Shown: positions 4,071-5,667 of the stretch, in pieces
Position numbering within the stretch: the stretch's first letter is position 1
Layout: each line of letters opens with the position of its first letter
NCBI GenBank assembly: GCA_021804525.1
Contig: JAJZHJ010000010.1
Location: forward strand, 1 to 13,483
From: Bacteroidota bacterium
GTDB taxonomy: Bacteria > Bacteroidota > Bacteroidia > Bacteroidales > Paludibacteraceae
Reading direction: 5' to 3'
Length of the DNA: 13,483 bases
Notes under the pieces: generated by a model
The model's database searches: none
Told to the model about the DNA's origin: nothing
The model's input: only the letters and a program-made list of their open reading frames with translations
Program-made: the position numbers and the translations under genes

Positions 4071-4221
4071 AGTTCAAAAAATAAAGCAATTCTCAAGTCG
4101 TAAGAGTATGATCGTATTTTGACCATATTTTGTGTCTTTGATTTGCTTTTTTGCTGTTTTTGAGTCATTCTAGAGGATGCATCTAAACCGAGTCTAATTA
4201 AGTTAAATAATTCGGAAATAA

Positions 4222-4254
4222 TTTGCTTTCCAGGTTGTTGTCGTATTATCTTTG
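4222..4254 (+). promoter_or_regulatory. promoter of small-RNA unit 1
   Basis: A TTTG -33 element (4222-4225) and a perfect TATCTTTG -7 box (4247-4254) are separated by 21 bp. This is a full match to the Bacteroidetes housekeeping promoter. Confidence 0.8.
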
Positions 4255-4256
4255 CA

Positions 4257-4329
4257 CTGTGTTTTCATGGTATTAGATTTAAGGTTAATAAATTGATTGT
4301 GGTTGTCGTGAGACAACCCTTTCTTTTTT
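4257..4329 (+). ncRNA. candidate small RNA, copy 1
   Basis: The transcript of about 73 nt is predicted from the promoter just upstream and the terminator at its 3' end. The 5' part is unstructured and AT-rich, with the core ATGGTATTAGATTT then AAGGTTAATAAATTG. The 3' part is the terminator hairpin. The only ATG opens a 9-codon frame that is not kept in copy 2, so a peptide is unlikely. The layout of single-stranded 5' region plus terminator is that of a trans-acting base-pairing RNA, though targets cannot be seen. The start point is estimated from the -7 box. Confidence 0.7.
4301..4329 (+). terminator. terminator of small-RNA unit 1
   Basis: Perfect 7-bp stem GGTTGTC/GACAACC closed by GTGA, a GNRA tetraloop, followed by CTTTCTTTTTT. 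The same bases occur in all three units. Confidence 0.85.
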
Positions 4330-4441
4330 AAACTGCAGTCAATCCTCATCCAAAAATTTGAATCCAAAATTCGCGTGATTATACGCATCAAATATAATTG
4401 TGCAAAGGGAGATTAATCATGCTCAAAAATGTGGAAAATAA

Positions 4442-4473
4442 TTGGATAAACAATTCCAATACATGTATCTTTG
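4442..4473 (+). promoter_or_regulatory. promoter of small-RNA unit 2
   Basis: TTG (4442-4444), 21 bp, then a perfect TATCTTTG (4466-4473). The spacing is identical to units 1 and 3. Confidence 0.78.
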
Positions 4474-4475
4474 CA

Positions 4476-4549
4476 CTGTGTTTTCATGGTATTAGATTTT
4501 AAGGTTAATAAATTGATTGTGGTTGTCGTGAGACAACCCTTTCTTTTTT
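4476..4549 (+). ncRNA. candidate small RNA, copy 2
   Basis: Predicted RNA of about 74 nt, differing from copy 1 in the transcribed part by one extra T in the run after ATTAGA. That indel opens a 21-codon frame (MVLDFKVNKLIVVVVR... would need the same frame in the other copies, which stop after 9 codons), so coding is unlikely. It shares the terminator hairpin exactly with the other copies and has its own promoter, so each copy should be transcribed independently. Confidence 0.7.
4521..4549 (+). terminator. terminator of small-RNA unit 2
   Basis: Same GGTTGTC-GTGA-GACAACC hairpin and CTTTCTTTTTT tract as unit 1, with no base changes. Confidence 0.85.
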
Positions 4550-4732
4550 AAACCATCCAGATTTGTTCAACTATGTTTTTTGTCTACTTTGAGATGTATC
4601 TATTTTGTGACATGGTCAATATTATTCCATAGCCTTGTTTAGATATCTCATTGTTAACCAACTTATGATTAAAGATACTCGCAATCTATCCTGTAAATGG
4701 AGATTAATCAATCTGAAAAATGCAGAAAATAA

Positions 4733-4764
4733 TTGGATAAGCAATCAAAACACCCCTATCTTTG
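4733..4764 (+). promoter_or_regulatory. promoter of small-RNA unit 3
   Basis: TTG (4733-4735), 21 bp, then a perfect TATCTTTG (4757-4764). Confidence 0.78.
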
Positions 4765-4766
4765 TA

Positions 4767-4840
4767 CTGTGTTTTTCATGGTATTAGATTTTAAGGTTAA
4801 TAATTGATTGTGGTTGTCGTGAGACAACCCTTTCTTTTTT
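4767..4840 (+). ncRNA. candidate small RNA, copy 3 (possible leader of the next gene)
   Basis: Predicted RNA of about 74 nt. Compared with copy 2 it has one extra T before CATGG and one A fewer in TTAATAATTG. The -7 box is followed by T rather than C. The hairpin and U-tract are unchanged. Its 3' end lies 47 bp before the ATG of the DUF3108 gene on the same strand. Read-through or regulated termination could therefore feed that gene, although copies 1 and 2 show that the unit does not need a following gene. Confidence 0.68.
4812..4840 (+). terminator. terminator of small-RNA unit 3
   Basis: Same stem, GTGA loop and T-tract as in units 1 and 2, lying just before the DUF3108 gene. Confidence 0.85.
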
Positions 4841-4887
4841 ATACCTGTAAGTCGATTACATATTTATTCCTGCAATTTTGAGATTCC

Positions 4888-5667
4888 ATGAATGCTAACC
4901 GCATCTTTATTCCCTTCCAGATTCTTTTTTTATTTCTAACGTCAATAAATATACTGGCTGCTCAAAATGTATTTGCTCCAGGCGAGCAGCTTGTTTATAA
5001 AGCATATTACCATCTTGGTTTTGTGTGGCTTCCTGCTGCTTCTATTGAGCTTTCTGTGTTACCTAATGAGAATTCACGATATATAACACTTCAAGCAGTT
5101 GGTAAAAGCTTCAAACGATATGATCTTTTTTTTAAGGTACGTGAGAATTACACTTCCACCGTTGATGCAAAAACATTAGCTCCTGTGCTTGCAACGCGCG
5201 AAGCTATTGAAGGAACTTATCAGGTGAATGACCGATGTCAGTTTAATCCTGACAGTGGAGTCGTAACGTATCGTATTGTAAGAAATTCAGGAGGAAATTC
5301 AACCGGCAAAGAACAAATTAAAGGCAAATTTTTCGATATTTTGACTTCAGCTTATTATTTTCGTACGTTTGACTTTGCAAAGATGGTGGTGGGTGATAGT
5401 TATACTGTCAATACGTTTGTTGATGGCAAAGTCTATCCAATCAACATAGAATTTTTGGGGAATGAAATGTGCAACGATAATAATGATCACCAATATTTAT
5501 GCGCAAAATTTAAGGTGAGCACCATCAAAGGAAAGGTATTTAGCGGAAAAGAAGATATATTGATGTGGGTAACAAACGATGCTGCAAGAATACCTATTCG
5601 TGTGACCTCTAAAATTTTAGTTGGAGAAGTCAATGTAGTTTTGATTTCGGCTAAAGGCATAAAATAG
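4888..5667 (+). CDS. exported DUF3108 domain protein
   Basis: The 259-residue protein has a hydrophobic signal peptide (about 5-25, ending ILAAQ), so it is probably periplasmic or outer-membrane associated. The rest is one DUF3108 domain. It shows PGEQLVYKAYYHLGFVWLPA (31-50), YDLFFKVRENYTSTVD (78-93), FDILTSAYYFR (149-159) and the closing MWVTNDAARIPIRV strand pair (226-239). The family forms a lipocalin-like beta structure of unknown function, and a role in envelope or lipid handling is only a guess. The gene lies 47 bp after the terminator of small-RNA unit 3. The nearest own box is CAATTTTG at 4873-4880, one base off consensus and with no -33 element, so read-through from unit 3 is a possible source of its mRNA. 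Confidence 0.85.
   Translation: MNANRIFIPFQILFLFLTSINILAAQNVFAPGEQLVYKAYYHLGFVWLPAASIELSVLPNENSRYITLQAVGKSFKRYDLFFKVRENYTSTVDAKTLAPVLATREAIEGTYQVNDRCQFNPDSGVVTYRIVRNSGGNSTGKEQIKGKFFDILTSAYYFRTFDFAKMVVGDSYTVNTFVDGKVYPINIEFLGNEMCNDNNDHQYLCAKFKVSTIKGKVFSGKEDILMWVTNDAARIPIRVTSKILVGEVNVVLISAKGIK

Follow-up and report, generated by a model that had tools for sequence, protein, structure and literature searches.

The window, i.e. the whole stretch of 13,483 nucleotides analysed here, contains three tandem promoter-small RNA-terminator units, followed on the same strand by the gene of a DUF3108 protein (Table 1). All the features that an earlier note had ascribed to this triplet are present in the sequence. 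The consensus promoter it had described, with TTG and TATCTTTG 21 bp apart, was confirmed at all three units, and the Rfam limits predict an RNA of 72-73 nt per copy, in agreement with the proposed 70-75 nt. The 7-bp hairpin with a GTGA loop, reported as invariant across the copies and followed by a U-tract, reads GGTTGTC-GTGA-GACAACC in each unit, with a T-tract after each. Because the copies differ by one-base indels, the units have no common reading frame, as had been noted. Six terminator-like sites were found between positions 4100 and 5000 (shuffle mean 0.4), three of them being the array hairpins, and repeat comparison within the window returned no further copy of the unit. The originally proposed unit length of 85 bp is too short, because an upstream block at approximately -72 to -34 recurs in units 2 and 3 and is conserved between species.

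Table 1. Features of the FopS array and its downstream neighbour. G000 is the source genome and G007 a genus mate; identities are fractions.
Feature	Position	Strand	Evidence
Three tandem promoter-sRNA-terminator units	4223-4330, 4442-4550, 4733-4841	+	sequence; array including upstream blocks 4187-4841
Conserved upstream block, unit 1	4187..4222	+	4187-4225 (including TTG) 0.85 identical G000/G007; spacer 1 0.45
Unit 1 promoter, Bacteroidetes type	4223..4254 (TTG 4223-4225, TATCTTTG 4247-4254)	+	spacing 21, consensus match
FopS copy 1, 72 nt by Rfam limits	4259..4330	+	RF04319, 72.7 bits, gathering 56
Copy 1 terminator hairpin, 7 bp, GUGA loop, then T-tract	4301..4318	+	fold, terminator scan, family stem covariation
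Conserved upstream block, unit 2	4406..4441	+	4406-4444 0.87 identical G000/G007
Unit 2 promoter	4442..4473 (TTG 4442-4444, TATCTTTG 4466-4473)	+	spacing 21, consensus match
FopS copy 2, 73 nt	4478..4550	+	RF04319, 70.8 bits
Copy 2 terminator hairpin	4521..4538	+	fold and terminator scan
Conserved upstream block, unit 3	4697..4732	+	4697-4735 0.79 identical G000/G007
Unit 3 promoter	4733..4764 (TTG 4733-4735, TATCTTTG 4757-4764)	+	spacing 21, consensus match
FopS copy 3, 73 nt	4769..4841	+	RF04319, 75.7 bits
Copy 3 terminator hairpin	4812..4829	+	fold and terminator scan
DUF3108 protein gene	4888..5667	+	PF11306, E 4.9e-33; starts 46 nt after copy 3

Family assignment and RNA structure

In the Rfam search, all three units exceeded the gathering score of the FopS family (BTncRNA_FopS, RF04319; Table 1), and the FopS relation that had been put forward as a guess therefore holds. 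At an E-value of 1, the only other Rfam matches between positions 4100 and 4900 were GibS and BTnc231, both far under their cut-offs. GibS (RF04182) has in common with FopS the R1 part of the 5' end (PMC11697453) and gives weak matches here, but its model spans 142 positions and includes a second seed; since the units score only 25.1-32.5 bits against a gathering score of 115, they are not GibS, and this identity was rejected. BTnc231 (RF04180) has a similar 5' end and a stem with a GUGA loop, but membership was likewise rejected at 28.9-32.4 bits against a gathering score of 80.4.

The units resemble FopS-01 to -14 of Bacteroides thetaiotaomicron in their R1'-type 5' seed, their length, the 3' terminator hairpin, the occurrence in multiple copies and the sigma-ABfr-type promoter. 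They differ in standing three in a row with position-specific variants, and in their host, which is Paludibacter-like, whereas the main text of PMC11697453 speaks of Bacteroidaceae. Besides the array, the source genome (an assembly of 2.15 Mb in 436 contigs, 78% complete) contains two single FopS copies (C31:1084-1155 and C66:2187-2258), and thus five in total; five copies were also found in each of seven genus mates. Several near-identical sibling sRNAs with overlapping targets are also found in other phyla (LhrC, Qrr and OmrA/B, named in the discussion of PMC11697453), to which no sequence relation is claimed.

Short folds of the three copies gave the 7-bp terminator stem in all of them and a mostly unpaired seed. 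The structure expected of FopS, i.e. a single-stranded R1' seed and a 3' intrinsic terminator hairpin, was accordingly found, save for a predicted 5-bp hairpin at the 5' end of the folded pieces, which takes up their first 14-15 nt, two of these lying upstream of the Rfam limit. Across 23 aligned FopS copies from several genera, the terminator stem is paired in 98.1% of the cells (a value matched by none of 500 shuffles), four of its seven pairs show changes on both sides (reached by 4/500 shuffles), and the stem covariation score is 0.321 (reached by 0/500).

Conservation and context of the array

The array is located upstream of DUF3108-metF-xseA in all seven genus mates, with three copies in each genome of clade A (G000, G003, G004 and G007) and four in each genome of clade B (G001, G002, G005 and G006). 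Small position-specific variants are kept across species within clade A and, as each position retains its own variants, the array predates the species of this clade. Between G000 and G007, the RNAs of copies 1, 2 and 3 are 0.97, 1.00 and 1.00 identical, while spacers 1 and 2 reach 0.45 and 0.40, respectively, the DUF3108 leader 0.63 and the first DUF3108 codons 0.59; the value of 0.39 for the unit-1 promoter is lowered, the G007 alignment being about two bases out of step there. In G001, G002 and G005, all four array units carry a GGGA loop and the single copy a GUGA loop, a pattern that suggests some exchange within the arrays.

A TTG-20/21-TAnnTTTG promoter, defined by consensus match and not by a mapped start, precedes every FopS copy (40/40) in the eight genomes of the genus; this layout is not due to chance, since the spacing of 20 or 21 holds in every copy. 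Further upstream, the identity of the blocks at -72 to -34 between G000 and G007 (0.85, 0.87 and 0.79 for units 1, 2 and 3) far exceeds that of the spacers, which hints at a regulator or UP-type element. These blocks look like a shared regulator site, and that of unit 1 is a candidate activator or UP region. Units 2 and 3 belong to an 84-nt repeat (81% identical) which includes the upstream block, and TTAATCA at -65 is common to their two blocks. In clade B, 9 of the 16 array units (L091, L092, L096 and L097) carry TTTGGTNNACCA, a short inverted repeat with varying centre lying over the -33 box. Such repeats were found in 0/12 array units of clade A, and two single copies of this clade fit a looser form; a regulator site at these inverted repeats is only a guess.

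The position of the array could also be read differently, in that the FopS RNAs are real and the array serves chiefly in cis, its promoters driving DUF3108-metF-xseA by read-through with copy 3 in the leader. The DUF3108 start codon lies 46 nt past the end of copy 3, and the gene order is kept in 7/7 genus mates as this reading would have it; however, each of the 28 array copies listed for the genus genomes has a terminator hairpin, and serial promoters with terminators between them would be a poor drive for one gene. In addition, it is the RNA and not the leader that is most conserved (1.00 for copy 3 and 0.63 for the leader), and the two single copies of G000 have neighbours different from those of the array. 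A role chiefly in cis is therefore improbable, and the DUF3108 gene is regarded as a syntenic neighbour of the array, possibly transcribed by read-through from it.

Even less probable is a short peptide encoded from the conserved ATG (MVLDF...). The ATG-GTA-TTA-GAT stretch is indeed conserved, but the three window copies, read by eye, give MVLDLRLIN-stop, MVLDFKVNK... and MVLDFKVNN-stop as a result of one-base indels, the ATG is replaced by ATA in 4 of the 23 aligned copies, and small ORFs were excluded for the B. thetaiotaomicron loci (PMC11697453). Finally, copies of a MITE, which the earlier note had named as a possible refutation, or decayed functionless repeats, which near-identical repeats and FopS copies on phage and plasmid records might bring to mind, are contradicted by an array that is syntenic in 7/7 genus mates and not scattered over varying unrelated sites, by position-specific variants retained across species, fixed promoter spacing, stem pairs changed on both sides, the lack of a further unit copy in the window and the strong constraint (97-100% identity in the RNAs vs 40-45% in the spacers), and this origin has next to no probability. 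All three readings were set aside on this evidence.

Complementarity to SusC start sites and proposed mechanism

Complementarity to the FopS 5' end is found in start regions that read ...AAATCTAATACCATGAAAAA. Seed-duplex energies, which ignore mRNA accessibility, were calculated from -40 to +20 for 36 SusC genes with a usable ATG from G000, G005 and G007 and for a background of 540 ORFs of the G007 sample, the first-ATG rule being applied to SusC and controls alike. The mean was -16.05 kcal/mol at the SusC starts vs -11.91 at the ORFs (p 2.4e-10), or p 1.7e-10 with a best-of-three-ATG rule, and none of 100 shuffled seeds matched the contrast; only 11 of the 36 SusC starts, however, rank with the best 5% of background ORFs. 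When the genomes are considered separately (first ATG), p was 1.9e-5 for G007 (n=15) and 2.1e-6 for G005 (n=15), these 30 loci being the best-scoring among 47 and 51 matches, respectively. G000, where six SusC starts were usable out of 28 matches (most are without a start), gave p 0.039 by this rule and a second value of 0.028. For 35 SusC genes, the median position of the duplex centre is about -6.5, counted from the start codon.

Another, less even control of 63 ORFs pointed in the same direction (35 SusC, p 2.0e-7, 0/200 shuffled seeds); in this comparison, a signal-peptide-like rule set the SusC starts and the first ATG the control starts, and some control loci had come from a seed-complement scan. 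A re-sample of 10 SusC ORFs (local profile, G007 stretches), which includes two pieces of one broken gene and several doubtful starts, gave p 0.11 under the first-ATG rule and 0.024 under the best-of-three rule. In G129, a genome of the genus g38 scanned over about 1.17 of its 2.1 Mb, pairing at five SusC starts was better than at the remaining ORFs (p 0.035 by first ATG and 0.013 by the best-of-three rule). The 69 lipoprotein-like exported ORFs of the G007 sample showed no difference from background (p 0.12).

The first-ranked of the 540 G007 ORFs is a GH3 enzyme and, according to Pfam, two of the top nine are SusD, the other six being a glycosyltransferase, a sigma factor, a transporter, a reductase, a transposase and an esterase; the Pfam set of ten consisted of these nine and of a third SusD, at about rank 13, chosen for its SusD-like look. 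Three genus genomes were scanned for near-exact seed complements (18 nt, up to three mismatches), and most matches were the FopS genes themselves, with 0-1 mismatch. Beyond the five FopS loci per genome, the scan gave 9, 11 and 5 sites in G000, G005 and G007 vs 3, 6 and 9 for the reversed control, i.e. no clear enrichment in these genomes, and the target signal is one of imperfect pairing. On the whole, pairing with the FopS 5' end is predicted to be stronger at SusC starts of the Paludibacter-like genus than at other ORFs, the signal being weaker in a re-sample from one genome.

The earlier reading of the units as sibling sRNAs is thus backed by conservation, covarying stems, a fixed promoter layout and complementarity between the seed and susC starts, the last being weaker in the re-sample. 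Family membership, constraint and synteny are established here, and seed-start complementarity exceeds background in most of the gene sets compared. For FopS-10 it has been described that it binds the start region of susC BT_3983, that translation is lost in vitro and that RbpB relieves this effect, and its reported targets include SusC and glycoside hydrolase mRNAs (PMC11697453); homology and seed complementarity are the reasons for carrying this mechanism over to the units of the window. We consider it very probable that these are tandem FopS sRNA genes, each with its own promoter and terminator, which repress translation of SusC-type importers. From transcription to repression, and likewise for the upstream blocks and for dosage, we infer the following course. 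Each unit would be transcribed from its own housekeeping-sigma-type promoter to its intrinsic terminator, giving an RNA of about 72 nt with the mostly single-stranded 5' end GUGUUUUUCAUGGUAUUAGAUUUAAGGUUAA. The start regions of susC-type mRNAs, and perhaps of some other glycan-use genes, would be bound by this end, which would thereby block translation initiation, as FopS-10 does in B. thetaiotaomicron. The array would most likely raise dosage, and its separate upstream regions would feed one common repressor pool.

Distribution of FopS and implications

FopS was found above the cut-off in 217/250 genomes of the family (234/250 at E 0.001) and in 76/393 genomes of the order (88 at E 0.001), and an RRM_1 (RbpB-type) gene in 101/250 and 257/393 genomes, respectively. 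Hand counts gave FopS at E 0.001 in 67/70 genomes of the genus g38 and RRM_1 in 0/70, and FopS in all 18 genomes of the order families f22, f26, f68 and f111, with RRM_1 in 0/18. On these counts, FopS is often present without a detected RbpB-type gene, although the Pfam RRM_1 model could overlook a divergent RNA-binding protein. No RRM_1 gene was detected in the 78%-complete source genome either, but this is best explained by incompleteness, because all seven genus mates have one to three.

As regards tandem organization elsewhere, a pair of exact 12-nt seed cores, at a distance of 215-245 bp from one another, was found in 13 contigs of the GTDB collection, five of which belong to genus mates of G000; their titles include Paludibacter, Tannerella, Alloprevotella tannerae and Parabacteroides faecalis. 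In three genomes of other genera (G008, G017 and G020), FopS copies also stand no more than a few hundred bases apart.

Copies with the FopS seed also occur in phages and beside tRNA genes; FopS in one Caudovirales phage is mentioned in PMC11697453. Thirteen viral contigs (L218-L230) contain an exact match to the FopS seed, in several contexts and with differing 3' parts. In an Rfam search of nine viral or phage loci, the FopS gathering score was reached at three, and the remaining six scored 39.5-55.0 bits. Bacteroides phage BX-TP2, induced by antibiotic from B. xylanisolvens, contains a full FopS (L231:974-1043, 78.9 bits) near one genome end, adjoining a DNA methyltransferase gene. Phages may use FopS mimics, e.g. 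to turn down surface receptors. In an IMG/VR viral contig with four tRNA genes (L219:3777-3922), a FopS-like RNA just under the gathering score (54.1 bits) begins 2-3 nt past the 3' end of a tRNA-Arg gene, and may be released by tRNA processing. In an uncultured Prevotellaceae contig (L083:1-376) there are two copies of tRNA-Asp, of which the contig end truncates one; a FopS-like RNA scoring below the gathering cut-off (50.4 and 46.5 bits) comes no more than about 15 nt after each copy. A pattern search of the 393 order genomes returned no tRNA-FopS fusions. Finally, 17 plasmid records (H4-H20) contain FopS-like stretches, only three of which cover at least 80% of the query; they come from Bacteroides (7), Parabacteroides (5), Phocaeicola (3) and Prevotella (2).

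The FopS family, its structure and its action are already in print and, since the units belong to this family, the present find is a conserved new array within a known class of RNA. No paper on tandem FopS arrays was among those listed by the literature searches, and the word tandem is absent from the main text of PMC11697453, to which this check was confined. What appears to go beyond that paper is the family-wide occurrence of FopS (217/250), its tandem organization with one promoter per copy, and its presence in many genomes where no RRM_1 (RbpB-type) gene was detected; the wider distribution may already be visible in the supplements of PMC11697453 or in the Rfam species list. It is conceivable, if rather doubtful, that FopS is an old, order-wide repressor whose core action at the start sites of SusC-type importers has no need for RbpB, that the array integrates three or four promoters under separate control into a single RNA pool, and that the seed was taken over several times by phages and tRNA genes to serve their own ends.

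The find would extend FopS control of glycan importers past the Bacteroidaceae named in the main text of PMC11697453, to a family in which most of the sampled genomes carry FopS. The g38 counts call into question the role of RbpB as an obligate partner of FopS, and the in-vitro translation described in PMC11697453 suggests that FopS can repress susC BT_3983 in the absence of RbpB. A conserved array in which each copy has its own upstream region offers a natural system in which to ask why bacteria keep many copies of an sRNA.
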